Shown here: positions 14,184-49,179 of the stretch, piece after piece
Layout of the letters: every line of letters begins with the position of its first letter
Numbering within the stretch: position 1 is the first letter of the stretch
DNA from: an uncultured Bacteroidia bacterium
GTDB taxonomy: Bacteria > Bacteroidota > Bacteroidia > Bacteroidales > F082
DNA: 52,513 bases
Direction: 5' to 3'
Assembly (NCBI GenBank): GCA_902774365.1
Contig: CACYHX010000014.1
Coordinates: 1 to 52,513, forward strand
Made by a program: the position numbers and the translations under genes
Notes under the pieces: model-generated
Seen by the model: only the letters and a program-made list of their open reading frames with translations
What the model was told of the DNA's origin: nothing
Database searches by the model: none

Positions 14184-14666
14184 TCAGGCCTTCATTTCGG
14201 CGTAATCAGGAAGATGATCGAGGGGCTGCAGGCCTTGTTCGCCAGCCTTAAAGCAATGGAGGACGGTGCCGTTGGTGAGGAGAAGATACTTGGGGCTCGC
14301 GGCCATAGATGCACTCGCCCCCTGGGCTCGGCATGACATGGCCGAATAATAACGCAGCGCCTGGTCGAGCACGATAGGGGTCAACTCCACCGTGGGAGCC
14401 TTGCACTCCACCACCATCAGCGGGGCGCCGTCAGGGCCGAAGACGACGGCATCGGCACGTTTGTCCAAGCCGTTCACCTTCAGCGAATACTCCACCGCCA
14501 CGAGTCCCGCCGGCACCTGCAGATGCTCCACCAGCAGATACAGCATCTTCTGGCGCACCTCCTCCTCGGGAGTGAGGGTGACCCAACGGCGGCGCAGGGG
14601 ATCGAAGACGAGAGTCCTCCCCTCGCGTTGCTCGGACTTGAACCATTGATGCTGTGTGTCGGCCAT
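14184..14666 (-). CDS. Stand-alone type I restriction R-subunit N-terminal nuclease domain (HSDR_N_2-like), 160 aa
   Basis: Resembles the short Bacteroidota proteins of about 145-150 aa consisting only of the HsdR N-terminal domain. FDPLRRRWVTLTPEEEVRQ opens the domain. The PD-(D/E)xK core is visible as RADAVVF (D72) and VVECKAP (E87, K89), followed by LDQALRY, and YLLLTNG continues the last strand. These stand-alone domains are common and of unknown role; no HsdM or HsdS is nearby. Odd feature: residues 108-122 (from YYSAMSC to SMAAS) are an insertion relative to the family. Their DNA is one copy of the hairpin element described at 14300-14344, kept in frame. The insert lies on the loop between the helix ending LDQALRY and the strand YLLLTNG, where it may be tolerated. 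ATG at 14666, divergent from the lipoprotein gene at 14715. Confidence 0.75.
   Translation of the reverse strand: MADTQHQWFKSEQREGRTLVFDPLRRRWVTLTPEEEVRQKMLYLLVEHLQVPAGLVAVEYSLKVNGLDKRADAVVFGPDGAPLMVVECKAPTVELTPIVLDQALRYYSAMSCRAQGASASMAASPKYLLLTNGTVLHCFKAGEQGLQPLDHLPDYAEMKA
14300..14344 (-). repeat. Hairpin element, copy A (inserted in frame in a gene)
   Basis: 45 nt (15 codons). Read on the minus strand: outer arm CGGC, then CAT, GTC, ATGC, CGA, GCCC, a 3-base loop AGG, GGGC, GAGT, GCAT, CT, ATG and arm GCCG. CAT/ATG, ATGC/GCAT and GCCC/GGGC pair; GTC, CGA, GAGT and CT are the unpaired internal-loop motifs shared with the copies at 19407-19457, 19493-19545 and 49068-49179. The middle pair of the ATNC stem is G:C here but A:T or T:A in other copies. 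Excision of the 45 nt would restore an uninterrupted frame (RYYSSPKYLLL). Confidence 0.8.
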
Positions 14667-14686
14667 GGGTTTTTATTTTGTGGCTG

Positions 14687-14710
14687 CAAAGATAAAAAAT
14701 CCTACCTTTG
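14687..14710. promoter_or_regulatory. Divergent promoters between the HsdR-N-like and lipoprotein genes
   Basis: Two -7 boxes lie in the 48-bp gap. Minus strand: TATCTTTG at 14694-14687, serving the nuclease-domain gene. Plus strand: TACCTTTG at 14703-14710, only 4 bases before the ATG at 14715, so that leader would be very short. A TTTG at 14677-14680 is 22 bases from the plus box. The two polymerases would compete for overlapping sites. Confidence 0.55.
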
Positions 14711-14714
14711 CAGC

Positions 14715-15083
14715 ATGAAAAACCGTTATTTCCTCCTTTTGGCCCTCGCCGGCATGCTATCTGCCTGCCATCCGAAAGCCGACCCACTCATCGGCACCTG
14801 GACGGTGAGCAAGGTCAACGTGCAGTTCGACGAGCAACGCAGCACCCCCGAGCTGGTGAAGCAGGTGGGCGAGATGGAGAAACAAAACATCATCACCATC
14901 AGCAACGATTCCACGCTGACATTCAAAGGATTGGAAGAAGAATGGCAGGGGCGCATCAGCCTCCGCAGCGATGGCACGATACTCCACGAAGGGATTATTT
15001 TTGGCATCTGGAAAAACGGGGAGATCGTCACCAGCAATGGGTCACCACTGGGGGAAGTTGTCGTTACCTACAAACAGGAATGA
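14715..15083 (+). CDS. Small lipoprotein, lipocalin-like (122 aa)
   Basis: A lipoprotein signal peptide with lipobox LSAC (Cys near residue 17) is followed by a beta-rich domain opening DPLIGTWTVSKVNVQFDE. The LIGTWTVSK entry and alternating strands (ITISNDSTLTFKG, GRISLRSDGTIL) fit the small lipocalin-like lipoproteins of Bacteroidota, which sit in the outer membrane and whose ligands are unknown. Starts at the ATG at 14715; the longer frame back to 14523 runs through the divergent gene. After its stop come 134 bases of repeat before the GIY-YIG gene. Confidence 0.7.
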   Translation: MKNRYFLLLALAGMLSACHPKADPLIGTWTVSKVNVQFDEQRSTPELVKQVGEMEKQNIITISNDSTLTFKGLEEEWQGRISLRSDGTILHEGIIFGIWKNGEIVTSNGSPLGEVVVTYKQE

Positions 15084-15094
15084 ACCCTCGGGGA

Positions 15095-15164
15095 CCGCTT
15101 TGCGCGTCATTGACTCGCTTCGCATCGTCGAATCGGAGATTTGCGAGGAACGAAGCAATCCAGA
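15095..15164 (+). repeat. Left repeat of the GIY-YIG cassette
   Basis: Contains CCGCTTTGCGCGTCATTG at 15095-15112 and GCGAGGAACGAAGCAATC at 15143-15160, separated by about 30 unrelated bases. Together these parts are the inverted counterpart of the repeat downstream of the nuclease gene (15520-15558), which has the two parts fused. ATTGC and GCAAT can pair, giving the same general build (GTC, stem, GA..., GAA, stem, CT/CC) as the hairpin elements elsewhere in the window. Confidence 0.7.
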
Positions 15165-15217
15165 GTACCAACTTTCGAAAAAGATTATCACTTTGCGAAC
15201 GATAAATCCCGATTGTC

Positions 15218-15508
15218 ATGGAAAAAAAAGCCTATGTGTACATATTATTTAGCCAAAGAAACGGGACATTATATACTGGCGTGACCTCTTCCCTGAAGCG
15301 TCGTGTCTATGAGCATAAAACAAAACTTCATCCGACTAGTTTTACTGCCAAATATGGCGTTGACAAATTAGGATATTTCGAAGAGCACAATTCAATTAAA
15401 GAAGCAATAGAAAGAGAGAAGCAAATCAAAGCAGGTTCAAGAGCTTCAAAACTGGCATTGATTGAGAACACGAATCCGCGTTGGGAAGATTTGTTCTACT
15501 TGCTGTAG
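15218..15508 (+). CDS. Small GIY-YIG nuclease (96 aa)
   Basis: A single GIY-YIG domain fills the protein. YVYILFSQ gives the first motif (V7-Y8-I9) and GTLYTGVT the second (Y19-T20-G21). SLKRRVYEHK carries the conserved Arg/His, and AIEREKQIK the metal-binding Glu (E67). The C-terminus ends NPRWEDL, as in many members. Related proteins are structure-specific or DNA-nicking endonucleases; this short form is uncharacterised. The gene is visibly lower in GC than its neighbours and is bracketed by inverted repeats (15095-15164 and 15520-15558), which suggests a mobile cassette. It may be the enzyme that cuts these repeats, but this is inference. No promoter box of good match precedes it. Confidence 0.85.
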   Translation: MEKKAYVYILFSQRNGTLYTGVTSSLKRRVYEHKTKLHPTSFTAKYGVDKLGYFEEHNSIKEAIEREKQIKAGSRASKLALIENTNPRWEDLFYLL

Positions 15509-15519
15509 CTCTATCCCTA

Positions 15520-15558
15520 GATTGCTTCGTCGTTCCTCCTCGCAATGACGCGAAGCGG
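15520..15558 (-). repeat. Right repeat of the GIY-YIG cassette
   Basis: Read on the minus strand: CCGCTTCGCGTCATTGC, GAGGAGGAACGACGAA, then GCAATC. ATTGC and GCAAT form a stem. It is inverted relative to the left copy and lies 11 bases after the nuclease stop and 19 bases before the stop of the convergent DUF4837 gene. It may also end both transcripts, but there is no T-tract. Confidence 0.7.
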
Positions 15559-15577
15559 CAGCGATGACGGCAAACGA

Positions 15578-16579
15578 CTACTGCTCTACAAATTGGAGAC
15601 TATAAGCGATGGCCTCCAGCTGGAGCAGCATGTTGCGTTTCTTCTGGTTGGGCTCGTAGTAGTAGCCCTCCACGGTGACGAGGTTGCCCGTGCGCGGATC
15701 GGCGAAGGTGTACGACACGAAGGGACCTCCCATGAAGTCGTTCTCCACGCGCCACATGCCTCGCATCTCGACGGTGTAGCCAGCAGGATAGTCCTTCACC
15801 TGTTTCACCAGAGGCGGCACAAACTCGGTCTCGGTGGTCATATAGGAGCCTTCGAGCGGACCCGGGATGTATTGCTGCATCATCATGTCGCGCATGGCCA
15901 CGAGGCTTGGCGTGTTGAACTGGATGGTGTCTTTATAAGGCGTCTGATAGATGACGATGCAGGCGCTGGAGCGCTCCTGCTCCTTGCGAAGCCACATGAA
16001 ATCGGCCTCGTCCTTGGCGATGAAGAAGCCCTGCGGCACTACGAGGGTGAAGCCGAAGCGCTTGGCGATGGCGGCGGCGATGTCCTCATCCTTAGTAGGA
16101 CGAAACACATTCAATATGCGCTCACGTTCCACCTTGTCGAACCACTGTTGGTACACCTCTTTCTGCTGGTCGAACAGCTCGACCCATGAGGTGACATCGG
16201 GCGCGCTGATCTTGATGTAACGCTGCGGAGCGGCCCATTGGTCGGCAACAGTGGTGGCCACAGCCTTTTGAAGACTCGGCTTGATTTCCACTTCCAGGAT
16301 GTTCTTGTGCCGCATGAACAGGTCTGAGAAGTTCGCCACGTTGACATGAGCCAAGTCGTTGCGTGCCTCGGGCTGCGGCAGGCCATACTGGTAGTCGAGG
16401 AAGAAATGGCGGATCGTGTCGCCGATGCGACCCTTCCACTGGTCATCGTTTTGGGTGACGACGAGGATTTCCGACGTCCCACCCGTTGAGCGGTCTTTCC
16501 TGCCGGGGCGTTGCTCCTCGCATGAGGCCAGCACTACCGCCAGCAAGACTACGATTGTTGTTTTAATGAAGTTTTTCAT
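15578..16579 (-). CDS. DUF4837 family lipoprotein (333 aa)
   Basis: Lipoprotein signal with lipobox LASC (Cys at about 20), then a conserved two-lobe domain of about 300 residues. Segments such as TGGTSEILVV near the N-terminus, the WAAPQRYIKI region, FWKD-like helices and the C-terminal GMWRVENDFMGGPFVSY match the Bacteroidota-specific DUF4837 family. The biochemical role is unknown; it should be anchored in the inner leaflet of the outer membrane or the periplasmic face. It follows the lytic transglycosylase by 7 bases, so the two are co-transcribed and a role in envelope or peptidoglycan maintenance is plausible. Confidence 0.8.
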   Translation of the reverse strand: MKNFIKTTIVVLLAVVLASCEEQRPGRKDRSTGGTSEILVVTQNDDQWKGRIGDTIRHFFLDYQYGLPQPEARNDLAHVNVANFSDLFMRHKNILEVEIKPSLQKAVATTVADQWAAPQRYIKISAPDVTSWVELFDQQKEVYQQWFDKVERERILNVFRPTKDEDIAAAIAKRFGFTLVVPQGFFIAKDEADFMWLRKEQERSSACIVIYQTPYKDTIQFNTPSLVAMRDMMMQQYIPGPLEGSYMTTETEFVPPLVKQVKDYPAGYTVEMRGMWRVENDFMGGPFVSYTFADPRTGNLVTVEGYYYEPNQKKRNMLLQLEAIAYSLQFVEQ

Positions 16580-16586
16580 GATATTA

Positions 16587-18116
16587 TTATTTTTTGATTT
16601 TGAGTTTTTGCCCCACCTTTACGGTGTTGCTTTTCAGGTTGTTCCATTTCTTGAGGTCGTTGACGGTGCAGCCGTATTTCCTCGAAATCGAGCTGAGGGT
16701 CTCCCCTTTCTTCACCGTATGCGTCTTGACGGTTGGCGCAGCTTGTTTTCCGCCGCTGTTCGACTTGTTGGTGCTCTTACCCACCTGAGCCATGGGAGCG
16801 CCTGAGCGATATATCTTCAACTTCTGACCCACGTGGATGGTCTCGCGTTTCAGGCGATTCCAGTTTTTGATGTTCGACACCGTAACGTGGTATTTGCGGG
16901 CGATGCTGCCGAGGCTCTCGCCTTTTTTCACTGTATGGGTGATGCAGTCGCTCACCTGTTCCACCTTCTCTTCGATGACCTCGCGTGCCTTTTCGGCCCT
17001 ACTGGTGTAGGAATAGATGCTATCTTCGAGTTGCACGAAACGCAACGTGTATTTCATGGGCATACGCAACGCACAAGGGAATTCCTTCGAAGCGGGGACG
17101 ATGCGCTTGGTGTATTGCGGGTTGAAGAAGACGAGGTCTTGCATGGGCACGCCGATACATTCGTTGATTTGGTCGAAGCCCACGCGATTGTGCACCACCA
17201 CCGTGTCGGTGCCATGTAACAGCAGGCCCGGATTGGTGGGATAGATGTTATGCTCGGTGGCGTAGTTCATCAAGTAGGTGACGGCAATGAACGCCGGCAC
17301 ATAGCCTCGGGTCTCCTTGGGCAGATAAGGCCAGATGGCCCAGTAGTTCTTGACGCCGCCCGCACGGATGATGGCCTTGTTGACCGTGCCCGGGCCTGAG
17401 TTGTAGGCTGCCAACACGAGGAACCAGTCCTCATAGCGAGCATAGAGGCTCTGCAGGTATTGGCATGCCGCCACGGTCTCCTTCATGGGGTCGTAGCGCT
17501 CGTCGAGCAAGGTGGTGACACGCAAGCCATAGTCCTTGCCCGTACCCAACATAAACTGCCACAAGCCTTTGGCTCCCGCCTTCGAGCCTGCCGTCGGGTT
17601 GAGTGCCGACTCCACCATGGCGAGGTATTTCAACTCCAGTGGGAGGTTGTACTTGGCGAGGTATTCCTCGAACATGGGGAAATAGACGTATGAAAGGCCC
17701 AACATACGGCTCGACTGCTGACGGCGGCGGTTGGCATACAATTCGATGAACGACTTCACATGGGTGTTAAAAGTCAGCGGAATCGTCGTCTGCCGCGCCA
17801 AGGCCTCGATACGGTTTTGGTAGACAGTGTCGTGAAAAACAGGCACTTCATCCCTACCGTAGTCGTAGATGTTCATCACTGCCGTGTCGATGTCGAGATA
17901 CACATCCTTGAAATAGCTGATGTTGCTCACCAAGTCCAGCATTTCCATCACCGCCGATTCGTCGACGACGGCCTTTCCAGAATTCAAATCCCTGATTTCC
18001 TGCTCATTCAGTTCAACATCGAGGCTATCGGGGGCAGTCGAATAGGATCTATTGACTTGGGCAAAAGCCGTGGCGAAGGGGAAAAGCAATAAAAGGACAA
18101 GGTGAGTGTATTTCAT
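16587..18116 (-). CDS. mltD: Membrane-bound lytic transglycosylase, MltD-like, with two LysM domains (509 aa)
   Basis: Start at the ATG at 18116, giving a Sec signal (YTHLVLLLLFPFATAFA). A helical N-terminal part precedes the SLT domain: LAMVESALNP with catalytic Glu at residue 169, KGLWQFM, and AAYNSGPGTVNKAI. Two LysM repeats close the protein (about 393-436 and 464-509), each starting THTVKKGE and ending VGQKLKI. Cleaves peptidoglycan glycan strands to 1,6-anhydro-muropeptides; LysM binds the wall. A Ser/Asn/Gly-rich linker separates the LysM units. It forms an operon with the DUF4837 lipoprotein downstream. Its divergent neighbour is the AI-2E-family membrane protein. Confidence 0.9.
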   Translation of the reverse strand: MKYTHLVLLLLFPFATAFAQVNRSYSTAPDSLDVELNEQEIRDLNSGKAVVDESAVMEMLDLVSNISYFKDVYLDIDTAVMNIYDYGRDEVPVFHDTVYQNRIEALARQTTIPLTFNTHVKSFIELYANRRRQQSSRMLGLSYVYFPMFEEYLAKYNLPLELKYLAMVESALNPTAGSKAGAKGLWQFMLGTGKDYGLRVTTLLDERYDPMKETVAACQYLQSLYARYEDWFLVLAAYNSGPGTVNKAIIRAGGVKNYWAIWPYLPKETRGYVPAFIAVTYLMNYATEHNIYPTNPGLLLHGTDTVVVHNRVGFDQINECIGVPMQDLVFFNPQYTKRIVPASKEFPCALRMPMKYTLRFVQLEDSIYSYTSRAEKAREVIEEKVEQVSDCITHTVKKGESLGSIARKYHVTVSNIKNWNRLKRETIHVGQKLKIYRSGAPMAQVGKSTNKSNSGGKQAAPTVKTHTVKKGETLSSISRKYGCTVNDLKKWNNLKSNTVKVGQKLKIKK

Positions 18117-18167
18117 TGGATAAGCTGTTTTTGTGTGATTTGTTGAGACTTCTTTTAGAAGCGAACG

Positions 18168-18215
18168 CAAAATTAGGAAAAATCATATATGAAACGTGAA
18201 AAAAAACTATTTTTG
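18168..18215. promoter_or_regulatory. Divergent promoters for mltD and the AI-2E-family gene
   Basis: Minus strand: TAATTTTG at 18175-18168, 52 bases before the mltD ATG. Plus strand: TATTTTTG at 18208-18215, 26 bases before the ATG at 18242. Both fit TAnnTTTG; -33 elements are poor. Confidence 0.5.
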
Positions 18216-18241
18216 TGACGTCATAAAGAGGAAAACAATTT

Positions 18242-19399
18242 ATGGAAAACGAAAGGAACACCGAAAAACTAGCGGGATATGTCATCAAACTGGGTGGTTT
18301 GGCCATCATTTTGGCCTTATGCTTCTTGTTCAAAAATGTGTTGGTCTACATCATTACGGCCTTTGTAGTGTCGCTCATCGGACGACCTATCATGAAGTTA
18401 TTGAGAAAGATACGCATCAAGAAACACAGCCTCCCCGACTGGTTGTTGGCCGTGTTGACCATCGTGTTCATCCTCGCCTTCTTGACTTTGATTGTCACAC
18501 AGATGATACCTATAGTGTCGAGTATCATCAAAGACGCCTCATCCATCCAGGCCTCTTCTTATTTCGGCACGAACCCCATCGAAAAGTTGAACGCATGGCT
18601 CGTCGGGCTGTTTCCCAACCTGGGCCACGACTTCGACATCACGGCGGTGCTGCTTACCAACCTCAGGGATGTGGTTGACTTCAACAAGGTGAGCGGCATT
18701 GTCGGCTCGGTGGCTTCGATGGTCACCAGTGCCTTTGTGGCTTTGTTCTCCGTGGTGTTCATCTCGTTTTTCTTCCTCAAGGACGACACCCTGTTTGAGC
18801 GCATCATCTGCGCCCTTGTCCCCGACCGTCACGAGGCCGAAATGGGCAAGACGCTCAACGACATCAAGCAGTTGCTCTCGCGCTATTTTGCCGGTTTGGT
18901 CATTGAGATGCTGGGCGTGGCCGTGATCGACTTCCTCGGCCTGTGGCTCATCGCCCGTCTCGGCTTCAGCTATGCCATCGGCATTGCCTTTATCGCCGGT
19001 CTCCTCAACGTGATACCCTACGTCGGTCCACTCATCGGCGAGTTCATCGGCGTGGTGTTCGGCATCATCTTGAAACTCGGCACGGGTGCGGGCTTGGACG
19101 TCAACATCTGGATCTTCGCCCTCATCATCCTGGCCATCATGCTGACGGCGCAACTCATCGACAACTTCATCTACCAGCCCCTCATCTACTCGACGAGCAT
19201 CAAGGCACATCCTTTGGAGATTTTCATCGTGCTGCTTATGGCGGGCCATATCGGTGGTGCAGTGGGAATGTTAGTGGCCATCCCCGCCTACACGGTAGTA
19301 CGCGTCATCGCCATCCGCTTCTTCTACCGCTACAAAGCCATCCAGCGGCTGATACCCGATTTGAGCGAAGAGGATAAAATCATTGAAAATACCGATTGA
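18242..19399 (+). CDS. AI-2E family transporter (385 aa)
   Basis: Polytopic inner-membrane protein of PF01594 type. Two close N-terminal helices (GLAIILALCFLF, YIITAFVVSLIG) are followed by WLLAVLTIVFILAFL, a soluble insertion of about 90 residues, and a C-terminal bundle with FISFFFLKDD, GLLNVIPYVGPLIGE and QLIDNFIYQP, the family hallmarks. Members export small molecules (TqsA/AI-2 in E. coli) or act in Na+/H+ exchange; the substrate here cannot be inferred. The gene is monocistronic, and its stop is followed after 7 bases by a hairpin element that could also terminate transcription. Confidence 0.85.
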   Translation: MENERNTEKLAGYVIKLGGLAIILALCFLFKNVLVYIITAFVVSLIGRPIMKLLRKIRIKKHSLPDWLLAVLTIVFILAFLTLIVTQMIPIVSSIIKDASSIQASSYFGTNPIEKLNAWLVGLFPNLGHDFDITAVLLTNLRDVVDFNKVSGIVGSVASMVTSAFVALFSVVFISFFFLKDDTLFERIICALVPDRHEAEMGKTLNDIKQLLSRYFAGLVIEMLGVAVIDFLGLWLIARLGFSYAIGIAFIAGLLNVIPYVGPLIGEFIGVVFGIILKLGTGAGLDVNIWIFALIILAIMLTAQLIDNFIYQPLIYSTSIKAHPLEIFIVLLMAGHIGGAVGMLVAIPAYTVVRVIAIRFFYRYKAIQRLIPDLSEEDKIIENTD

Positions 19400-19406
19400 T
19401 GGATTA

Positions 19407-19457
19407 GCCTCCCATGTCATACCGACCGAGGAACGAGGGAGCGTATCTATGGGAGGC
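19407..19457 (+). repeat. Hairpin element, copy B1
   Basis: 51 nt. Arms GCCTCC/GGAGGC enclose CAT, GTC, ATAC, CGA, CC, a 9-base loop, GG, GAGC, GTAT, CT, ATG. CAT/ATG, ATAC/GTAT and CC/GG pair. Begins 7 bases after the AI-2E-family stop and is inverted relative to copy B2, 35 bases further on. Confidence 0.8.
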
Positions 19458-19492
19458 GGAACAAAACAGCAATAACTCTATCTTGTCGGCTT

Positions 19493-19545
19493 CAGTAAGC
19501 ATAGATACTCTCGCCCTTGTGGGGCTCGGTATGACATGCTTACTG
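19493..19545 (-). repeat. Hairpin element, copy B2
   Basis: 53 nt. Read on the minus strand: arms CAGTAAG/CTTACTG enclose CAT, GTC, ATAC, CGA, GCCC, loop CACAA, GGGC, GAGA, GTAT, CT, ATG. All stems pair perfectly. The arms have nothing in common with those of the other copies. Ends 22 bases from the acetyltransferase stop. Confidence 0.8.
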
Positions 19546-19567
19546 CAGCCTACCCTGAAGAAGAATG

Positions 19568-20062
19568 TTAAAGTCTTTTCTGGAACGCCATCCGCGCATT
19601 GCCATCCAGCAAATAAATGATACCGCAATACTGGTAACCGTGCCTTTCCAAGCCTTTCCGCATAATGATATTGGCCTCGTGCGTGTCGATGCGGATGTTC
19701 GAGACTTGGCTCTCGCAATAATTCAAAAGCGCATCCAAGATGCCATGCGAGCTGGGCGTGCTGGCGATACGATGGATGACGTGATAAGGCTCCTCATCGA
19801 GCCATTGGCCGTCGTAAATCTTGTTGTAAGTCACCTCGGGGCTAGGCAAAAGGGCGAATGTCCCCACTACCCTGCCCTGCTCATCAAGCATCACATGGCT
19901 GCCGCCTAACTCGATGTCTTTCTTGAACATATCGTCTCGCGGATAGCCGTCGGGCCACTGGAAGGTGTTGCCATAGCTGCGCATGATTTCGCGCGCTTGG
20001 TCGCGGAGATTAAGGATGACCGACAGGTCGGCCAAGGTGGATTTGCGGATGGTGTAGCTCAT
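19568..20062 (-). CDS. GNAT-family N-acetyltransferase (164 aa)
   Basis: GNAT fold: MSYTIRKSTLADLSVILNL is the beta1-alpha1 opening, GRVVGTFALLPSPE covers strands 3-4, and the second half has IRIDTHEANIIMRKGLERHGYQYCGII, the usual C-terminal motif in which a residue of the last helix contacts acetyl-CoA. The acetyl-CoA loop between (HRIASTPSSHGILDALL) is SSHGI rather than the canonical R/QxxGxG/A. The acceptor is unknown. The start codon overlaps the ybaK stop (ATGA), so the two genes are translationally coupled. Confidence 0.8.
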   Translation of the reverse strand: MSYTIRKSTLADLSVILNLRDQAREIMRSYGNTFQWPDGYPRDDMFKKDIELGGSHVMLDEQGRVVGTFALLPSPEVTYNKIYDGQWLDEEPYHVIHRIASTPSSHGILDALLNYCESQVSNIRIDTHEANIIMRKGLERHGYQYCGIIYLLDGNARMAFQKRL

Positions 20063-20562
20063 TTTTGACCGAGTTCAAAGATGGTCAAGTCGGCGATGGT
20101 CATATCCACCACCTGAATCAAGTCCTGAGGGTTGAGTTTGAACTGCAAGCCACGCACACCCGCACTGACGTAGATGTAATCAAACAATTCGCAGGTCTCG
20201 TGGATGAAGGTCGGGAATTGTTTCTTCATGCCCACGGGCGAGCATCCGCCACGGATGTAGCCCGTCAAGGGCAATAGCTCCTTCATCGGGATGAGGTCGC
20301 AGCTCTTGTTACCCGTGGCCTTGGCGGTCTTCTTCAGGTCGAGTTCGTCGTTGCCCGGGATGACGCAGACGAAATACCCTATCTTGTCGCCTTTCAGTAC
20401 CAAGGTCTTGAACACCTGGTCGATGTCCTCACCCAGCTGGTCAGCGATATGCTGCGCCCCGAGGTCGTTTTCATCCACCTCGTAGGGTATCAGCTCATAC
20501 GCAATCCCTTTTGAGTCAAGGATACGGCAGGCGTTGGTCTTGTTGATTTTCTCTTTGGGCAT
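20059..20562 (-). CDS. ybaK: Cys-tRNA(Pro)/aminoacyl-tRNA deacylase, YbaK/EbsC family (167 aa)
   Basis: Matches YbaK: KTNACRILDSKGIAYELIPYEV at the N-terminus, DQVFKTLVLKGDK, the lysine-rich LDLKKTAKATGNK and the signature GYIRGGCSPVGMKK. Hydrolyses Cys mischarged onto tRNA-Pro after ProRS errors. Normal length. Lies 2 bases after purL and overlaps the acetyltransferase by 4 bases, so it is in the purL operon. Confidence 0.9.
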   Translation of the reverse strand: MPKEKINKTNACRILDSKGIAYELIPYEVDENDLGAQHIADQLGEDIDQVFKTLVLKGDKIGYFVCVIPGNDELDLKKTAKATGNKSCDLIPMKELLPLTGYIRGGCSPVGMKKQFPTFIHETCELFDYIYVSAGVRGLQFKLNPQDLIQVVDMTIADLTIFELGQK

Positions 20563-20564
20563 GA

Positions 20565-24254: not shown

Positions 24255-24286
24255 AAGCGCAAGGTTTTATGCATAGAACGATGCGA

Positions 24287-24294
24287 CAAAGGTA
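24287..24294 (-). promoter_or_regulatory. -7 box of the purL promoter
   Basis: Minus strand TACCTTTG (TAnnTTTG), 32 bases before the purL ATG, in the 92-bp gap after priA. No purine riboswitch-like fold was recognised in the short leader. Confidence 0.6.
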
Positions 24295-24346
24295 GGATTT
24301 TTTCACTACACTTTGTTTGTATTCCTTAAAAATAATTCGGCAATGC

Positions 24347-28163: not shown

Positions 28164-28165
28164 AT

Positions 28166-38824: not shown

Positions 38825-38941
38825 GAAAAAAGCGTTTTTTAAGTGATTTTTTTCTTCCCTAAAGTGGGAAAAATTGCCTATAATACTGAAATATAAAGAT
38901 TTATGAAAACGAGAAATTTTTGATATTTTTTTCGTCTTCAT

Positions 38942-39238: not shown

Positions 39239-39262
39239 CGTTTCGAGTTAATGAATTTGTGG

Positions 39263-39270
39263 CAAATATA
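39263..39270 (-). promoter_or_regulatory. -7 box for the basic lipoprotein gene
   Basis: Minus strand TATATTTG (TAnnTTTG), 24 bases before the ATG at 39238. The divergent lipoprotein gene at 39326 has only imperfect matches (T-rich tracts at 39291-39320). Confidence 0.45.
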
Positions 39271-39325
39271 ATAATTTTCCTGGAAAAAGATACTTTTTTG
39301 CAAAAAAAATCGTTTTTTTGCCGTC

Positions 39326-40881: not shown

Positions 40882-40889
40882 ATTGTTTG

Positions 40890-40937
40890 CAAAAGTACAA
40901 CATTTTCAGACCTGCATTGCATTTTTTTGTAACTTTG
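40890..40937. promoter_or_regulatory. Divergent promoters for DAHP synthase/CM and asnS
   Basis: Minus strand TACTTTTG at 40897-40890, 8 bases before the ATG at 40881, implying a very short leader. Plus strand TAACTTTG at 40930-40937, 40 bases before the asnS ATG. No -33 element at ideal spacing on either strand. Confidence 0.5.
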
Positions 40938-40977
40938 CACTTTATTTATACGAAGCAACAAAGAATATCATCATACA

Positions 40978-42417: not shown

Positions 42418-42418
42418 A

Positions 42419-42502
42419 CAGTTGTCAGTTGTTCAGTTATTCAGTTGTTCAGTTGATGAACGACGCTAACTGAACAACTGAACAACTCCAAACTGACAAT
42501 TG
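42419..42502. repeat. Large palindrome of CAGTTGTT-type units between asnS and rpoN
   Basis: Direct units resembling TCAGTTGT fill the left half and their complements the right half. CAGTTGTTCAGTT (42442-42454) pairs perfectly with 42468-42480, extended to about 20 bp with one mismatch, and CAGTTGTCAGTT at 42419-42430 pairs with 42491-42502 (11 of 12). It ends 2 bases before the rpoN ATG, so in RNA the fold would include the rpoN ribosome-binding region. No T-tract, so it is not a standard terminator. Confidence 0.8.
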
Positions 42503-42504
42503 AA

Positions 42505-44004
42505 ATGAACAACCAACGATTGACTCAAACCCAGCGGCAGGAGCTGAAGCTCTCTCCGCAGCAGATCCAGCTGATGAAGCTGTTGCAGCTGCCATTAATC
42601 GAACTCGAGCAGCGCATCAAGGAGGAGATGGAGATCAACCCCGCCTTGGAAGACTCACACGAGCATGACGACTACGAGGACAACGAGCCAACCGTTGACG
42701 AGACCGACAACGGCGAAAACGACGACTACAACGACAACGAGGTCAACTTCAACAAAGACGACGAGTTCGACATCAACGACTACCTGAACGAAGAAGACCT
42801 CGACGACTATTCCTATAAGCTGCAAGCCAACAACTACAGCAGCGACGATGACAGCTACGAGACTCCCATCGTCAACGAAGAGACCTTCCAAGACTATCTA
42901 AACCAACAGCTCTCCTACCGTAACCTCACCGAAAAACAACTCGAAATTGGGGAATACATCATCGGCAACCTCGACGACAACGGCTACCTCAGTCGCTCCA
43001 TCCCCAACATCGTCGACGACATGCTGTTCACGATGAACATTTCAACCACCGAGGAAGAAGTGGCGGAGGTGCTTGCCATCGTGCAACAGCTCGACCCACC
43101 CGGCATTGCAGCTCGCAACCTGCAAGAGTGCCTGCTCATCCAGTTGGAACGGCTTCAAGAAGAGAGCCCTTATGGCAACTTCGACCTTTCAATTACCATC
43201 ATCAAAAACTGTTTCGAGGAGTTCACCAAGAAACACTACGACAAGATCGCCAAGAAGCTGAACGTAAGCAACCGTGAGCTGAAACCCGCTTTGGATGCCA
43301 TCTTGAAACTCAACCCCAAGCCCGCCGACGCTTCAAGCACTGGCACCAAAAACATCCATTACATCACCCCCGACTTCTTCATCTTTGTCAGAGACGGCAA
43401 GGTGGAGCTGTCGCTGGATGGCCGCAACACGCCCGAGCTCCACGTCAGCAAAAGCTACCTCAAGATGCTGGAAGAGTTTTCGGGAAGCAAAGACAACCGC
43501 GGCAAGCAGGAGGCAGTGCAGTTTGTGAAGCAGAAAATCGATGCAGCCAAGTGGTTCATCGACGCCATCAACCAAAGGCAAAACACCTTGTATGTCACGA
43601 TGAAAGCCATCGTCGACATCCAAGAGGAGTATTTCCTTACAGGCGACGAAACCAAACTAAAGCCGATGATCCTCAAGGATGTCGCCGACAAGGTAGGCCT
43701 CGACATCTCCACCATCTCGCGCGTGGCTAACAGCAAGTACGTTCAGACGCCCTACGGCACCTTCCTGTTGAAGTTCTTCTTCAGCGAAGGCATCACCAAC
43801 GATGACGGCGAAGAGGTGTCGACCCGCGAAATCAAGAAAATCCTGAAGGATGCCGTGGAAAGCGAAGACAAAGCGAGCCCGATGACGGACGAGCAACTGA
43901 TGCTCGTGTTGAAAGAAAAAGGCTACCCCATCGCCCGTCGCACCGTGGCGAAGTACAGGGAACAGCTAGGCATCCCCGTGGGGAGAATGAGGAAAAAGAT
44001 CTGA
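42505..44004 (+). CDS. rpoN: RNA polymerase sigma-54 factor (499 aa)
   Basis: Region I activator-interaction segment (QELKLSPQQIQLMKLLQLPLIELEQRI), then a very acidic region II (about residues 50-110, long runs of Asp, Glu and Asn). Region III core-binding part has LDPPGIAARNLQECLLIQL, DISTISRVANSKYVQTPYGTFLLKFFFSEG is the helix-turn-helix region, and the RpoN box ARRTVAKYRE lies at about 477-486. Directs transcription from -24/-12 promoters and needs an enhancer-binding ATPase. No such activator lies in the window. The start ATG at 42505 directly follows the palindrome. Confidence 0.95.
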   Translation: MNNQRLTQTQRQELKLSPQQIQLMKLLQLPLIELEQRIKEEMEINPALEDSHEHDDYEDNEPTVDETDNGENDDYNDNEVNFNKDDEFDINDYLNEEDLDDYSYKLQANNYSSDDDSYETPIVNEETFQDYLNQQLSYRNLTEKQLEIGEYIIGNLDDNGYLSRSIPNIVDDMLFTMNISTTEEEVAEVLAIVQQLDPPGIAARNLQECLLIQLERLQEESPYGNFDLSITIIKNCFEEFTKKHYDKIAKKLNVSNRELKPALDAILKLNPKPADASSTGTKNIHYITPDFFIFVRDGKVELSLDGRNTPELHVSKSYLKMLEEFSGSKDNRGKQEAVQFVKQKIDAAKWFIDAINQRQNTLYVTMKAIVDIQEEYFLTGDETKLKPMILKDVADKVGLDISTISRVANSKYVQTPYGTFLLKFFFSEGITNDDGEEVSTREIKKILKDAVESEDKASPMTDEQLMLVLKEKGYPIARRTVAKYREQLGIPVGRMRKKI

Positions 44005-44008
44005 CAAA

Positions 44009-44059
44009 GGGGATTGCGCCCCCAGTTCGGCACGGCCGGATGGCAAATCCGACCGAACT
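44009..44059. repeat. Compound inverted repeat between rpoN and the histidine kinase
   Basis: Outer stem AGTTCGG (44024-44030)/CCGAACT (44053-44059) encloses CGGAT (44037-44041)/ATCCG (44047-44051). A short GGGG...CCCC pairing precedes it. No T-tract follows. It could slow or end the rpoN transcript or be a dispersed palindrome. Confidence 0.55.
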
Positions 44060-44108
44060 TCTCACGACCGAGCTATAATAATTCAGTAACAACATCGTTT
44101 TTATCCTT

Positions 44109-45617
44109 GTGAAAACGAACCTCTATACTAACAAAAAACGCTGGAAATGGGCCTTGGCTGTCATCGCCATGCTCATCATCGGTGTGTCGTTGTGGTACAC
44201 CAACCACCTCGTAAAATCAATTGCCGAGCAGGAAGTCAAGCAAGTGAAGATGTGGGCTGCCGCCATGGAACAACATGCCGTGATGATGAAGTCGACGGAA
44301 GAGTTCTTCAATAAGGTGAGCGAGCAAGAGCAACTACGCGTCGAACTGTTGGCCAACGCCTATCGCCGCATCATGGACATCTCATCCAACGAGAACACCG
44401 CCACCTATGTCGACATCATCCGCAACAACATCAGCATCCCACTGGTACTTACCGACGGAAAAGGCAACATCATCTCGTCGAACAACCTACCCCCCGACCA
44501 ACAAGGGAAAACGGTATTCGATGCCGAAATGAAACGCGCTTACTCAAAGTTCCCGCCCATCAAGATCAGCCCTGGCTATGGCATCGAGCAATACCTGTAT
44601 TACAACGAGTCACAAATCTACACCGACTTGAAGACCGTCCTGGAAGACATGACGGACCACTTCATGGAGGAAATCACGCTCAACTCCATGGGCGTACCCG
44701 TCATCGTCACCAACGAAGACCAAACGCAGATCCTCAGCTTCGGCAACCTCGACTCCCTCATGATGCGTGACACCAATTACGTCAAGCAACAGATTGCCAT
44801 CATGCGTGATGAGAACGACCCACTGCAAATCGAGTTCATGAACAAGGGAAAAGCCACCATCTTCTATCGCACCACCGACTTGGTACAACAGATGCGTTAC
44901 TACCCTGTCATCCAGTTCGTTGTGTTCGCCCTCTTCCTCTTGATTGCCTACCTGCTGTTCAGCTATGCCCGTCGTTCGGAGCAAAACCAGGTGTGGGCTG
45001 GCATGGCCAAGGAGACCGCACACCAACTAGGCACGCCGCTCTCCTCGCTGATGGGATGGATAGAGCTGTTGAAGATGCAAGAGGAGCCTTTCGTGGGCAC
45101 CCACGAGATGGAGAAAGACATCGAACGCCTGCAAATCGTCACCGACCGCTTCTCGAAGATCGGCTCTGTGCCCGTGCCCGAGCCTACCGACATCAACTAC
45201 CTCATCCGCGACACGATGGACTACCTGCAAAAACGGTTCTCCAAGAAGTTTGAGTATGAAATCAACCTGCCCGAGGGCGAGCTTGTCATGCCCTTGATAC
45301 CGTCGTTGTTCCGCTGGGTGCTCGAAAACCTGACCAAGAATGCCATTGATGCCATGGGCGACCACGGCAAAATCACCCTCGACCTCATCGACGACGGCGA
45401 CCACATCCACATCGACCTGAGCGACACGGGCAAGGGCATACCGAAATCGAAGATCAAGCAGGTCTTCAATCCTGGCTATACCAGCAAGAAACGCGGCTGG
45501 GGTCTCGGCCTGTCATTGGCCAAGCGTATCATCGAGGATTACCACAAGGGCAAGATTATCGTGAAATCTTCCGTGGTGGGTGAAGGCACGACGTTCAGGA
45601 TTACCTTAAAGAAGTAA
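44109..45617 (+). CDS. Membrane sensor histidine kinase (502 aa)
   Basis: Starts at GTG 44109; no nearby ATG fits the conserved N-terminus. TM1 (about 13-31) and TM2 (about 265-286) border an extracytoplasmic sensor of about 230 residues that includes a PAS/Cache-like VPVIVTNEDQTQILSFGNL segment. H-box MAKETAHQLGTPLSSLMGW with phospho-acceptor H305; N-box ENLTKNAIDAM (N411); G-boxes DTGKGIP (439-445) and GWGLGLSLA (463-471). No cognate response regulator adjoins, so it is an orphan in this window. Position after rpoN might mean it feeds a sigma-54 activator, but that is only inference from location. Confidence 0.9.
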   Translation: MKTNLYTNKKRWKWALAVIAMLIIGVSLWYTNHLVKSIAEQEVKQVKMWAAAMEQHAVMMKSTEEFFNKVSEQEQLRVELLANAYRRIMDISSNENTATYVDIIRNNISIPLVLTDGKGNIISSNNLPPDQQGKTVFDAEMKRAYSKFPPIKISPGYGIEQYLYYNESQIYTDLKTVLEDMTDHFMEEITLNSMGVPVIVTNEDQTQILSFGNLDSLMMRDTNYVKQQIAIMRDENDPLQIEFMNKGKATIFYRTTDLVQQMRYYPVIQFVVFALFLLIAYLLFSYARRSEQNQVWAGMAKETAHQLGTPLSSLMGWIELLKMQEEPFVGTHEMEKDIERLQIVTDRFSKIGSVPVPEPTDINYLIRDTMDYLQKRFSKKFEYEINLPEGELVMPLIPSLFRWVLENLTKNAIDAMGDHGKITLDLIDDGDHIHIDLSDTGKGIPKSKIKQVFNPGYTSKKRGWGLGLSLAKRIIEDYHKGKIIVKSSVVGEGTTFRITLKK

Positions 45618-46106
45618 TCAGTTTTTGATTACGTCGAAATAATAGTTGACATAATAGTGTTCGAGGGTCGCAATATGAACTTTCGATTCTCTTGCATAGC
45701 CATGCAGACGAATCTTCCCGGACTTGTTCGTATAAACGTAAGCCGTCACCTCTTCAGCATAGGGGCTTATCGACGCCTTAATATGAATGAGAAAATCATC
45801 GTCGCCAGCATTATGCTGTCCAGTATAAGACCGCGTGAAAGCAGCCTTAGGGCACCTGATGTTAAACTGCAAGCCATTTACACCAGAGGAAGAGATGTCG
45901 ATGATGGCATCATCACAAAGATGAAAATACTCGCTTTCCGTCAACCCCTCAAAGGCGTCAGACACACCGGAGTAAGTGAAATGCCCAATGACGTCTTGGG
46001 GCGTGAAGCCATATTTGTACTGCCATTCCTTGGTGCTGTCCTTCTCGCAGGAGAACAACACTACACCAAACAAAAGCACCAAAGGCAAAATCTTCATTCT
46101 TTTCAT
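45618..46106 (-). CDS. Lipoprotein of unknown function (162 aa)
   Basis: Lipobox LFSC (Cys near 20) after KRMKILPLVLLFGVVLF. The mature domain is beta-rich with many Tyr/His residues (HFTYSGVSDAFEGL, LQFNIRCPKAAF, HIATLEHYYVNYYFD). I do not recognise the family. It is the last gene of an operon with the M1 peptidase (12 bases upstream) and another lipoprotein. Its stop abuts the stop of the convergent histidine kinase with no spacer (45617/45618). An alternative ATG lies three codons in. Confidence 0.7.
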   Translation of the reverse strand: MKRMKILPLVLLFGVVLFSCEKDSTKEWQYKYGFTPQDVIGHFTYSGVSDAFEGLTESEYFHLCDDAIIDISSSGVNGLQFNIRCPKAAFTRSYTGQHNAGDDDFLIHIKASISPYAEEVTAYVYTNKSGKIRLHGYARESKVHIATLEHYYVNYYFDVIKN

Positions 46107-46118
46107 AGTGTTGGCTTG

Positions 46119-48422
46119 TTATTTTACGATTAGTTTTTCCGTCGATACCACCATGCCTTCCTTATCGAGGCACACCACCGTGTAGCAGCCTTGGGGCATG
46201 TCCGCCGTCGAAATATCGATGTGTCCGGCTTGGCTTACACTTATCCTTTTCAGTTCCTTGCCGTCGAGGCCAATGATGCGGACCTCGCCGTCAAAAACGC
46301 CTTCCCAACTCAGTCGCACTTGACCATCGGTAGGATTGGGATAGAGATGGATGTTCTTTTCGGGAGCGGCAAGTTCCTCCGTGCCGAGGGCTTCCTTGTC
46401 CCAAGCGGCGACGGCATAGTCACCCGGCTGGAAGTCTTCGAAGACGAGACGGCCGTTCCTCCATATGCTTCCTGGATACCAAGTATGCTCGATTTCATGC
46501 CATGCCTCAGACGCATTACGACGATACAGCACCGTGGCCGAGTCGTTCATCGTGTGGATGATGTCGTTATCCGAACTGCTGGTGAAGTCGATCATACCTG
46601 TCACCGTGGCCTCACCGAAATCATAGCGGTTCACAGTCCAGAAATGCTTGGACGACATCGTCAGATAGGGTATCAGAGGGTCGTCGTAAGGGCCAACCAG
46701 ATGGTTCTCGATGGCGACAAACACAGAGTCGGTAAGCGTCTCCGGCTGGACTCTGAATCTAGCAAAGTTACTCATCGTCGTCGACTTCAGCATGTAATTC
46801 TTTTGTGTCTTGCCATCAAGCCAGCCATTGGCGATGTCGCCGACCACACCTAGAGGTGAAAAGTCAAGGGTGACGGTAGTCTCGCTATGCAGACCGTTCC
46901 ACTCCACTCGCTCCGTAGCCATCTGGAAATCAGGGCCAATGAAAGTAATGTCATAGCCATTGCTTTGTCCGATATGCGTGTCGCCGATATGCTGGTAACG
47001 TAAGTCAAGCGTCACCTCATACTGGCTGCCAACCGGATTGACGGAGATGATGCTTGCATAAAGGTTCGGCATTCCTGAGCTATATACGAAGGTGTCGAAG
47101 AAGTCGTGCATGTCGATGCCGGAATACTGGGTCAAGGCCTCACAAAGCAGCTCAGAAGTGGCAGTTTGATAGGCATATTGCTGGAAATACTGGCGCATGG
47201 CAGCGAGGAAGTTCTCGCGTCCCATGTAGTTCATCATCGTGCTGACGATGACGGCGCCACGGTTGTAGATGACATCGCTATCGTAAGTCAAATCCAGAGG
47301 CATGTTGTTGATAGGCAACCAATGTAATTGGTTCGTTTGCCAATTATTCACCGCGTTGTTCACCATTGTCGACATGGTGTTTTGGTAATTCTTCTCGCCA
47401 TAGACACCTACTTCGTAGAAGGCGCCCCAGAACTGGGCGAAGCCCTCGTTGAGCCACATGTCGCCCGCTTCTTCACAGGTTACCAGATTGCCCGACCACA
47501 TGTGCGATAGCTCGTGGGCCACATATTCTTCGCCGCCCGTGTTGCCGTTGATGATACTCGAAGCGAAAGCGATGTTGTCGGTGTGTTCCATACAACCTTT
47601 CTTGGTGCTCACATAACCGATACGGTTGAAAGGATATGGCCCAAGTATTTGTTCAAAATAACCAATAATTTCCTTGATATGGACAAACGTGCCAGGCACG
47701 CTGTTCATCTGGTTCGGCTTGGCATACACCTCGATGGGGATATCACGTTCAACGCCTTGGTAAGTGTCTTCCCAAAGCTCATATTGGCCCACGGCAAACG
47801 AGATATGGTAAGTGGCAATCTCCTGGGGCGTCTCCCAATGCCAGCTGGAGGTGCCATCGCCATTGTCGACAGTCTCAACGAAAAGGCCGCCGCAGATGGC
47901 TTTCTTGTCGTTGGTCGTGGTGACAAACACGTCGTAGGTGGCTTTGTCGGTGAAGTTGTCGACACAAGGAAACCAGGTCTTGCCGAGGTTGTGCGGCTGA
48001 CTATCGAAGCCTACGCCAAGGTTATAGACGTAGTTGGGATCATCCCATTCCACGCCGCCCCAAGTCTCGCTGAAAGTGTTGCCGCCATAGACGATGTCCA
48101 AGGTGGCTGAGCTTCCACTCGCCAAAGGAGAGGCCAGGTTAATGGTCAGGAAGTCGCCGGATTGCGAGAAATCGGCAACCGTGGCGCCTGTGGCCGTCAC
48201 GGAAGTGGCGACCAAGGATTTCAGTTCGAGTACGATTTGCTGCACCTCGGCCGTAGCCGTGAAGGTGACAAAGGTCTCGCCTGCCAGCGTGCGGTTGGCA
48301 TAGTCGAAGTCGCCAATGTGGATTTCATAATGGGTCGCGTCGATGTTCTCGCCTGGCGTTTGCGCTTTCGCGACAAAGGCCAGGGGCAGCAACAGGGACA
48401 GCAATAAGAAAAGTCGTTTCAT
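46119..48422 (-). CDS. T9SS-exported M1-family zinc metallopeptidase (767 aa)
   Basis: Start at the ATG at 48422 (signal KRLFLLLSLLLPLAFVAKA). N-terminal saddle-like beta domain, then the M1 catalytic domain: exopeptidase motif GCMEH at about 276-280, zinc site HELSH (H303, E304, H307) and third ligand E326 in WLNEGFAQFW. A C-terminal beta part leads into a T9SS type A sorting domain (IHLYPNPTDGQVRLSW, VRIIGLDGKEL, MPQGCYTVVCLD, KLIVK). It should be a surface or secreted aminopeptidase releasing amino acids from external peptides. The motif reads G-x-M-E-H as in several bacterial M1 subfamilies, rather than GAMEN. In an operon between two lipoproteins. Confidence 0.92.
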   Translation of the reverse strand: MKRLFLLLSLLLPLAFVAKAQTPGENIDATHYEIHIGDFDYANRTLAGETFVTFTATAEVQQIVLELKSLVATSVTATGATVADFSQSGDFLTINLASPLASGSSATLDIVYGGNTFSETWGGVEWDDPNYVYNLGVGFDSQPHNLGKTWFPCVDNFTDKATYDVFVTTTNDKKAICGGLFVETVDNGDGTSSWHWETPQEIATYHISFAVGQYELWEDTYQGVERDIPIEVYAKPNQMNSVPGTFVHIKEIIGYFEQILGPYPFNRIGYVSTKKGCMEHTDNIAFASSIINGNTGGEEYVAHELSHMWSGNLVTCEEAGDMWLNEGFAQFWGAFYEVGVYGEKNYQNTMSTMVNNAVNNWQTNQLHWLPINNMPLDLTYDSDVIYNRGAVIVSTMMNYMGRENFLAAMRQYFQQYAYQTATSELLCEALTQYSGIDMHDFFDTFVYSSGMPNLYASIISVNPVGSQYEVTLDLRYQHIGDTHIGQSNGYDITFIGPDFQMATERVEWNGLHSETTVTLDFSPLGVVGDIANGWLDGKTQKNYMLKSTTMSNFARFRVQPETLTDSVFVAIENHLVGPYDDPLIPYLTMSSKHFWTVNRYDFGEATVTGMIDFTSSSDNDIIHTMNDSATVLYRRNASEAWHEIEHTWYPGSIWRNGRLVFEDFQPGDYAVAAWDKEALGTEELAAPEKNIHLYPNPTDGQVRLSWEGVFDGEVRIIGLDGKELKRISVSQAGHIDISTADMPQGCYTVVCLDKEGMVVSTEKLIVK

Positions 48423-48436
48423 ATCGTTAGTGTTTA

Positions 48437-48997
48437 TTATTGCCAAGTGGGGTTAGTGATGATAGCATCGGTCTGTATCGTATTGCTTACGTGCAAGGCG
48501 CGATCAAGGATGCGGATTTCGAACTTAATGGTGTCGTTGGGCGAGAAAGGATTCTTCACCATGAGCCTGTAATCCATCATGCCGCTGATGGCCTTAGGGT
48601 CGTCATTGTCGCGCAGGCGATGGAAGCGGGCGTTGAAAGTAATCGTGTCCCAAAGCACCGTATCGGTCGGAGACGTCGGCACATGGGGGCTCAACAGCGG
48701 AGTCACCACAAACTCACCGTTGACGCATTTCAGGTAGTCGACCTCCACATTATAATAATGGGCATCGCGGAAGCCGAAGGGCGACAGGGTATCGCTGTCG
48801 TCGAGACCCAGGTCGCCGTCGCCGTCGGTATATGAGAACGAGACGATGCCCTCTCCGCTGAAGGTGCTGTCGGCATTGAACAGGTAAGTGAAGCCCTCGT
48901 AAGCAATATGAGGTTCGATGGGATACTCAACGGGCTTTTGGCAGGAAAAGGCCGCCAAAGCCAGAAAAAGCAGTCCTATGAGATTGCGGTTTTTCAT
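48437..48997 (-). CDS. Lipoprotein of unknown function (186 aa)
   Basis: Start at the ATG at 48997; the frame further upstream is AT-rich leader. Lipobox AFSC (Cys near 19), then a beta-sandwich-like domain with FSYTDGDGDLGLDDSDT, an Asp-rich loop that could bind calcium, and LMVKNPFSPNDTIKFEIRILDRALHVSN. Similar GDGDLG-containing lipoproteins occur widely in Bacteroidota without assigned role. First gene of the operon with the M1 peptidase, 14 bases ahead of it. Confidence 0.7.
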   Translation of the reverse strand: MKNRNLIGLLFLALAAFSCQKPVEYPIEPHIAYEGFTYLFNADSTFSGEGIVSFSYTDGDGDLGLDDSDTLSPFGFRDAHYYNVEVDYLKCVNGEFVVTPLLSPHVPTSPTDTVLWDTITFNARFHRLRDNDDPKAISGMMDYRLMVKNPFSPNDTIKFEIRILDRALHVSNTIQTDAIITNPTWQ

Positions 48998-49067
48998 TGT
49001 TATCGGTTGAGGCGGTAAAAATACAACTTTTTGGGGAATTAAAGACGTTTTCCTTTTTGTTTTTCCA

Positions 49068-49179
49068 AGTGCTGACGTGCATGTCATTCCGAGACCTTTA
49101 TCGGCATAGATACACTCACCTTTTAGGTTCGGTATGACATGCCGATAAAGGTCGAAGCGAATCTATGCGCGTCAGCACT
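49068..49179 (+). repeat. Hairpin element, copy C-outer (interrupted by copy C-inner)
   Basis: Arms AGTGCTGACGTGCAT (49068-49082) and its complement at 49165-49179 (one mismatch in 15) enclose GTC, ATTC, CGA, GACC, then copy C-inner, then GGTC, GAAGC, GAAT, CT. ATTC/GAAT and GACC/GGTC pair. The inner copy occupies the apical loop. These elements and one promoter are all that the gene-free stretch 48998-49323 (326 bases) holds. Confidence 0.8.
49093..49153 (-). repeat. Hairpin element, copy C-inner
   Basis: Perfect 15-bp terminal complement (GACCTTTATCGGCAT, 49093-49107, with 49139-49153). Read on the minus strand the core is CAT, GTC, ATAC, CGA, ACCT, loop AAA, AGGT, GAGT, GTAT, CT, ATG. The outermost four bases (GACC/GGTC) may belong to the third stem of the outer copy. 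The apical stem is ACCT/AGGT where copies A and B2 have GCCC/GGGC. Confidence 0.85.

Follow-up and report, generated by a model that had tools for sequence, protein, structure and literature searches.

Nested hairpin elements with mostly copy-specific arms in an uncultured Bacteroidales genome

Elements in the window and anatomy of the family

Contig CACYHX010000014.1 of an uncultured Bacteroidales bacterium (assembly GCA_902774365.1), a stretch of 52,513 nt analysed at its full length and termed the window, carries short hairpin elements, here called GTC elements, in which fixed internal loops are enclosed by mostly copy-specific arms. The initial annotation described five such copies, and all five are present where it placed them. 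It listed them as separate elements and each is real, but they occupy four loci, the fifth lying within the apical loop of the fourth. The window in total contains one single copy in a HSDR_N_2 gene, one inverted pair (19406-19545) and one nest (49068-49179).

Copy 1 (14297-14347, minus strand) is a single element, in frame in the HSDR_N_2 gene (open reading frame (ORF) 14184-14666, minus strand), with its core at 14305-14339 and arms CGGCC/GGCCG; its flanking repeat may be read as direct or inverted, GGCC being self-complementary. Copies 2 and 3, single elements which make up the first and second halves of the inverted pair, are located downstream of an AI-2E_transport gene. Copy 2 (19406-19458, plus strand) has its core at 19414-19450 and arms AGCCTCCC/GGGAGGCG, while copy 3 (19493-19545, minus strand) has its core at 19501-19537 and arms CAGTAAGC/GCTTACTG, which continue, with mismatches, as GGCTGCAGTAAGC/GCTTACTGAAGCC. 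Copy 4 (49068-49179, plus strand) is the outer element of the nest, of the GTCATTCC type (49081-49166), with one mismatch in its outermost arms GTGCTGACGTGC/GCGCGTCAGCAC. Copy 5 (49093-49153, minus strand), the inner element, is of the GTCATACC type with its core at 49106-49140 and lies in the loop of copy 4 in opposite orientation, its arms TTTATCGGC/GCCGATAAA forming an extension of the apical stem of copy 4. When folded as DNA, the nest (49060-49190) gives a z-score of -8.6 and copy 3 one of -5.8, compared with -1.3 for copy 1 and -2.2 for copy 2. Short consensus searches within the window alone came near chance level, and Rfam returned no match at its gathering score there. An ORF with a Zeta_toxin/AAA P-loop match adjoins the nest (49165-49917), its listed start codon being the terminal ATG of the element.

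Across the 2.82 Mb genome, in an assembly 82.6% complete, the exact pattern ATGTCATNCCGA-N5-30-GNATCTAT occurs in 40 copies, with none in a backwards-read control; both strands are used, with 16 and 24 copies in the two orientations. A covariance model (R1), built with the arms included from the alignment of these 40 copies (A1), gives at least 87 matches in this genome at E up to 1, with nest layers counted separately and 150 of 812 first-look candidates scored. The genome search proposed in the initial annotation thus leads far beyond five copies. Among the R1 matches is a second type of ca. 57 bp, mostly GTCATTCC, with a longer apical part.

The element is layered from the outside inwards as arms, an AT/AT pair, an internal loop GTC/CT, a stem ATNC/GNAT, an internal loop CGA/GAGN, and an apical stem with its loop; the search pattern itself dictates AT/AT and the majority of the fixed bases. 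Constancy of GTC, CGA and CT holds as first described, while the right-hand inner loop of the GTCATACC type is redrawn from A1 as GAG plus one base ahead of GNAT. The arms, originally given as 4-15 bp, are indeed mostly copy-specific but range from none to 20 bp, mismatches included. Contiguous arms beyond AT/AT reach at least 4 bp in 32 of the 40 copies, with a median of 12 when mismatches are allowed; left and right arms taken from different copies give a mean of 3.5 and a maximum of 10. Certain arm types recur, namely GAAGGC, GCAGCCC, AGCCTCCC and CCGTGC. Covariation among the copies, as anticipated, exceeds that of shuffled alignments: standard pairs fill 92.9% of 680 pair cells in A1 (shuffled mean 67.9) and 155 cells are altered on both sides (shuffled mean 53.3), a signal which is lost when partners are slid.

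Nesting is common. Judged by flank patterns, 22 of the 40 copies are enclosed by another element, the inner copy being reversed in 19 and in the same orientation in 3; the remaining 18 comprise 5 half recognised as enclosed and 13 not enclosed. A rule by which inner arms are shared and outermost arms unique was unsupported (at least 7 of 8 arm bases were identical in 18 versus 13 of 231 pairs). Other short repeats also occupy these elements. At L038 (G000 C45:14507-14573) the loop of a GTC element holds TCCCCCTTTTAAGGGGG...GGGGGATTC, and a 24-bp AAATGCTTTGCATTCGNCGNAGNC, which may be a further tiny mobile hairpin, lies inside elements at L018, L108 (between GTCATTCC-type ends) and L095 in some relatives and is missing in others.

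Gene sites, relatives and the origin of the arms

Many copies lie within ORFs which run straight through the element. Pfam families were assigned to 15 such ORFs in the source genome or in the sister genome G071: HSDR_N_2, biotin ligase, Kdo transferase, HemN-type radical SAM, another radical SAM, oligopeptide ABC transporter, PolA, FAD oxidase, rhamnosidase, EPSP synthase, GH77, PrmC-type methyltransferase, PMT_2, Mur ligase and amidohydrolase. At the HSDR_N_2 site of copy 1, 17 of 18 aligned relatives from the genus lack the element and G071 carries it; at gene sites generally some or most relatives are empty, depending on the site. At several of these sites one and the same codon bears different elements across species (a single element of the 57-bp type, a nest or an unrelated repetitive extragenic palindrome (REP)) or none. 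Orthologous arms diverge between species and stay largely complementary in the HemW-like, FAD-oxidase, GH77 and rhamnosidase genes.

Several gene sites hold further repeats. In the HemW-like gene (L096, L226-L229) five relatives carry a ATTGCGGGC..CCCGCAAT REP where G000 has a GTC nest, and the arms of this ATTGCGGGC-type REP are long and species-specific, with a mismatch in some. In the ABC transporter gene (L205-L208), CCCTTCGACAGGCTCAGGG or a variant of it, another REP-like repeat, stands where G000 and G004 have a GTC nest, and at the PMT_2 site L392, L413, L417 and L396 hold C-rich hairpins. The PolA copy (L149, G071:C10:69506-69558) lies in frame just ahead of the 3'-5' exonuclease domain; REPs in DNA polymerase I genes are also listed by Di Nocera et al. 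(2013; PMC3733652).

For a comparison of whole sites, G071 was searched with the 140-bp flanks of 34 sites and 30 loci were compared, with alignments read by eye; outside these 30 stand L040, L046 and L047, which matched in G071, and L014, which gave no match. The site is the same in 17, inverted in 3, empty in 5 (L003, L009, L010, L028 and L041) and occupied in place by a different hairpin in 2 (L004 and L044), while L001, L005 and L026 are not readable. The three flips lie between the arms and comprise the inner core only at L042 and entire nests at L006 and L045. At the empty L003 site the relative retains a hairpin, TTTTTTGCC-GTT-GGCAAAAAA. In the reverse direction, 20 G071 sites had no counterpart in the loci fetched, and 18 of them were located in the source genome (all except L157 and L165). 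Clean pairs with an empty partner were obtained for the G071 elements L150, L120, L125, L149, L121, L151 and L153, whereas L132, L159, L166 and L168 (unalignable across the site) and L143-L146, L160 and L163 (too divergent locally) were excluded; at L162 the element is present in both genomes.

Near-identical copies at different sites mostly have different arms. A set of 242 distinct elements gave 190 near-identical pairs, of which 55 with flank identity above 0.6, mostly orthologues, were set aside and 135 kept. Left-flank identity ends within 3 nt of the element in 129 of the kept pairs and right-flank identity in 115, and those exceeding 3 nt include two orthologous pairs, L045/L093 and L049/L416. 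Since flank identity stops so soon in most near-identical pairs, an element usually gains its arms where it lands, though nests can be copied whole. That the element carries its arms as a rule finds no support in this flank comparison, though some copies bring 7-8 nt.

The comparison of empty sites across relatives, also proposed at the outset, points the same way. For 26 alleles at 11 gene sites, each arm was scored automatically as native or novel against the best empty relative, with two AroA alleles and L415 (misplaced arm boundary) left out and random arms processed identically as a null. Eighteen alleles pair a native arm with a novel one, 5 have no native arm and 3 have two, compared with 34.4, 62.1 and 3.6% for random arms. 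Taking the first allele per site, 10 of the 11 sites are one-sided, and a native arm of at least 6 nt is found in 13 of the 26 alleles against 19% of random arms. Because the null is high, more weight is placed on sites which can be read directly. In the radical-SAM gene, AAAGCCT is already present in the empty L217 and its mirror AGGCTTT is new in L048; in the FAD-oxidase gene, TCAGTTT is found in one of five empties (L232) and the mirror AAACTGA is new. In the PMT_2 gene, AAGCTGGTCTT, with at most one change, stands to the right of the element in five filled alleles, its left mirror AAGACCAGCTT occurring only in G000 and G080. Such pairing of one old with one new arm fits the idea of a target-templated inverted duplication put forward in the initial annotation.

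A sister REP, GTCATTGCGA..CAAT, served as a control within the fetched genus loci. Arms of at least 6 bp occur in none of its 17 copies, compared with 61 of 90 for the first armed type and 27 of 40 for the second, the 57-bp type, in loci which were originally fetched for armed elements and in which orthologous copies are counted more than once; cross-paired controls give 0.5% (GTCATTGCGA) and 7.8% and 10.3% (two armed types). Arms are thus linked chiefly, though not strictly, to the GTC family rather than to hairpins of any kind. The core itself is found in many phyla, with Treponema, Planctomycetes, Chloroflexi, Patescibacteria and Melainabacteria among the matches listed (80 of 113 stretches), mostly without arms: contiguous arms measure 0-1 in 84 of 123 matches, 2-3 in 10 and at least 4 in 29. 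Among the matches listed, arms of at least 6 belong to Bacteroidales, Bacteroidia, "bacterium F082" or "bacterium P3", some of them from the same genomes. In a genome survey with R1 (E up to 1e-5, strict filters, weak matches being lost), armed elements were detected at order level in 1 of 149 drawn genomes, namely the source genome, and within the genus in 38 of 99, with a maximum of 55 per genome.

Relation to known repeats and candidate enzymes

Judged from its sequence, the core belongs to the CGTC/TGTC REPs and bears the TGTC tag, while its way of making and nesting palindromes is unusual. According to the account of Di Nocera et al. (2013; PMC3733652), CGTC/TGTC REPs share with it a TGTC tag left unpaired at the 5' foot, a stem opening with AT/AT and perhaps a short 3' tail, as well as inverted pairs, intragenic copies and hosts among the Bacteroidetes. 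In the GTC elements, GTC is found in 40 of 40 copies, though the search pattern fixes it, and the T preceding it is paired in the arms; on the 3' side an unpaired CT is followed by a pairing AT, compared with a superfamily tail of 3 unpaired nt, mostly CCA. The REPs of that account differ in having an 8-9 bp stem with a loop of 4-5, whereas here a 4-bp stem is followed by the CGA/GAGN internal loop and an apical stem. Where REPs lie in larger palindromes in that account, in three species, each is a consensus palindrome, unlike the site-specific arms and nesting described here. The earlier statement that no named mechanism is known has to be amended, as the core resembles a named class of REPs, for which the same account (PMC3733652) names no dedicated transposase.

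REPINs with RAYT transposases have reportedly been described by Bertels. Like the GTC elements, REPIN/RAYT systems comprise short hairpins scattered through the genome, some as inverted pairs (Quentin et al., 2018; PMC6006769); they differ in the 5' GTAG/GTRG tag of RAYT REPs, which GTC elements lack. The genome contains a Y1 gene (on L189) with a YIHQNP motif, a motif given for subclass 2.6 (PMC6006769), to which the gene is assigned by this motif only. Two Y1 (HUH) genes, at L189:1423-1956 and L188:1489-1938, are flanked, as judged by eye, by other repeats, of the GAATTTGCAATTCG and CAGGGACTTACGTCGCCTGC types. In a search restricted to the Y1 transposase family, R1 found nothing within the 6,552 bases surrounding the two Y1 genes, even with E up to 10, and the Y1 protein was set aside as cognate enzyme, there being no GTC element beside either gene; with the assembly as incomplete as it is, a further Y1 gene may be missing.

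Other systems share single features. Rickettsia palindromic elements are likewise palindromic and in frame in genes, but measure ca. 150 bp and fall into ten families, with nesting or site-specific arms not described in the excerpts of that source at hand (PMC10969869). Insertion sequence (IS) elements which target REPs are alike in that a mobile element enters a REP, the difference being that a full IS with its transposase does so in the cases reported (PMC1525189), whereas here a REP enters a REP and no protein is encoded. A miniature inverted-repeat transposable element (MITE) of a DDE transposon would have fixed terminal inverted repeats and a direct target duplication, unlike the mostly copy-specific arms and inverted flanking copies seen here. 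A further known process is quasipalindrome template-switch mutation, which produces mirror-image arms, stem correction and spacer inversion (PMC8604942; PMC8794818). In yeast it is described as homogenising arms and inverting spacers (PMC8604942), and DNA template switching is described as creating stems with compensatory changes in RNA genes (PMC8794818). Its hallmarks are present here as an old arm facing its new reverse complement (18 of 26 alleles versus 34%) and as spacer inversion (3 of 30 sites, read by eye). The difference is that no mobile core features in these accounts, while here the process goes mainly with a single REP family and with insertion into hairpin tips. In the openly licensed literature, no paper was found on CGTC REP palindromes in Bacteroidales, nor, among the papers listed, one joining template switching with REPs; searching by the sequence letters led to papers on unrelated topics.

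Proposed mechanism and alternatives

The favoured reading, held tentatively and at somewhat less than even confidence, is that insertion of a REP core together with snap-back template switching builds and corrects the arms, and that hairpin tips become favoured targets. The core would spread within one Bacteroidales genus as a short unit with ends near AT-GTC...TCT-AT and at times as a whole nest. A DNA end being extended at the target would be joined to a REP core copy or switch onto it; this core would fold back and its 3' end would prime copying of the strand just made, by which the flank adjoining the element would be rewritten, inverted, on the other side of the element before synthesis returned to the original template. 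At a palindromic target the copied arm would match the second arm exactly, allowing an easy return, so that hairpin tips would be favoured and nesting would follow. Later rounds of the same template switching would perfect the arms and flip the spacer. Fold-back priming, the order of the steps, the timing of the arms (at or after insertion) and the enzyme belong to what we infer from the pattern. A bolder version, possible but distinctly less probable, is that insertion itself writes an inverted copy of the target alongside (hairpin-primed, self-templated integration), each copy being the next preferred target, and that palindromes grow by nesting without an end-fixing transposase.

A number of observations weigh against the snap-back reading. 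Twenty of the 55 set-aside pairs, at flank identity 0.62-0.78, share arms or an outer layer; several are inner nest copies with a common outer layer, so some arms do travel with the element, and L125 holds 7-8 nt of the arms of the near-identical L008. Neither arm is native in the 5 alleles noted above, and the 18 one-sided alleles have to be read against the high null, with alleles within a site non-independent and the class of L049 shifting with flank length. In G071 the arms of L121, L125 and L150, of 4-11 nt, are found in neither flank of the empty site, the PolA insertion replaced ca. 12 bp of left flank, and the 11-nt PMT_2 flank is missing from the empty allele L393 and may itself be young. 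A consistent polarity was looked for across sites and none was found; a fixed one, with the GTC side old and the CT side copied, fits copy 1, L041 and L048 but is contradicted by the rhamnosidase site and L394, with flips as a confounder. Finally, template switching of a general kind should give arms to sister REPs as well. Yet of five CCTC/CGTC REPs with core ATTGCGGGC, the two at the HemW-like site do bear long arms (13 and 16), and arms are thus not strictly confined to the GTC family either.

Part of this would be explained if a transposase moved the whole arm-core-arm unit or whole nests, with boundaries varying inside the arms. The recurrent arm types, the shared arms of L125 and of the 20 pairs, and the absence of either arm from the empty partners of L121/L179 and L150/L169 are in keeping with such a unit, but near-identical copies rarely share more than 3 nt of left flank (129 of 135 kept pairs do not) and 18 of 26 alleles have one native arm, and this alternative is considered unlikely.

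Somewhat less probable still is the conclusion drawn in the initial annotation, that the compensatory changes speak for selection acting on a folded structure, with a DNA or RNA hairpin serving the host and arms co-drifting through selected compensatory point mutations. The inner stem is paired in 40 of 40 copies, partly imposed by the search pattern, and orthologous arms alter on both sides yet mostly pair (the HemW-like ATTGCGGGC-type, FAD-oxidase, GH77 and rhamnosidase cases). Against this stand the flips in place and the use of both orientations, the codons which bear different cores or none among relatives, and the lack of an Rfam match in the window. On the snap-back reading copy-to-copy covariation is no proof of selection, because each site has its own arms and the covariation follows from the way they are made; template switching as published can yield the same pattern (PMC8794818; PMC8604942), and the conclusion was not supported.

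It is also improbable, and slightly more so, that a plain armless REP inserts and general template-switch mutation later adds arms to whatever hairpin is present. That process has been published as homogenising arms and inverting spacers (PMC8604942), and one gene site holds a palindrome without core in L379 and L380, which also counts in favour of the snap-back reading; the 17 armless GTCATTGCGA copies argue against it, as do the G071 copies with an empty partner in the source genome, which are already armed. The palindrome in L379 and L380 is a perfect one, CTCGTAAAACGG-TTCCA-CCGTTTTACGAG, and L373 has a short, imperfect one at the same place. Insertion into pre-existing palindromes such as terminators or other repeats, in the manner of IS elements entering REPs, may hold for the nested layer, as nested copies occupy loops of other copies, the L003 relative keeps its hairpin and some REP families lie within palindromes in the account of Di Nocera et al. 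(2013; PMC3733652), but as a general target at gene sites it is very improbable and was rejected, both arms being native in just 3 of 26 alleles and several empty sites being free of palindromes by eye.

Several consequences follow for the genus and for this class of repeats. In-frame copies in biotin-ligase, HemW-like, PolA (G071), AroA, PrmC and Mur-ligase (G071) genes indicate that insertions survive in housekeeping proteins, and some codons have been struck repeatedly. Stems that covary between dispersed copies are not necessarily a sign of structural selection, as copying may create the complementarity. Dozens of loci in a single genus allow insertions, flips, nests and empty sites to be compared directly, whereby the question of how CGTC/TGTC REPs move becomes testable. 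Self-templated integration, if true, would constitute a mode of mobility distinct from that of IS elements, MITEs and RAYT-driven REP transposition.

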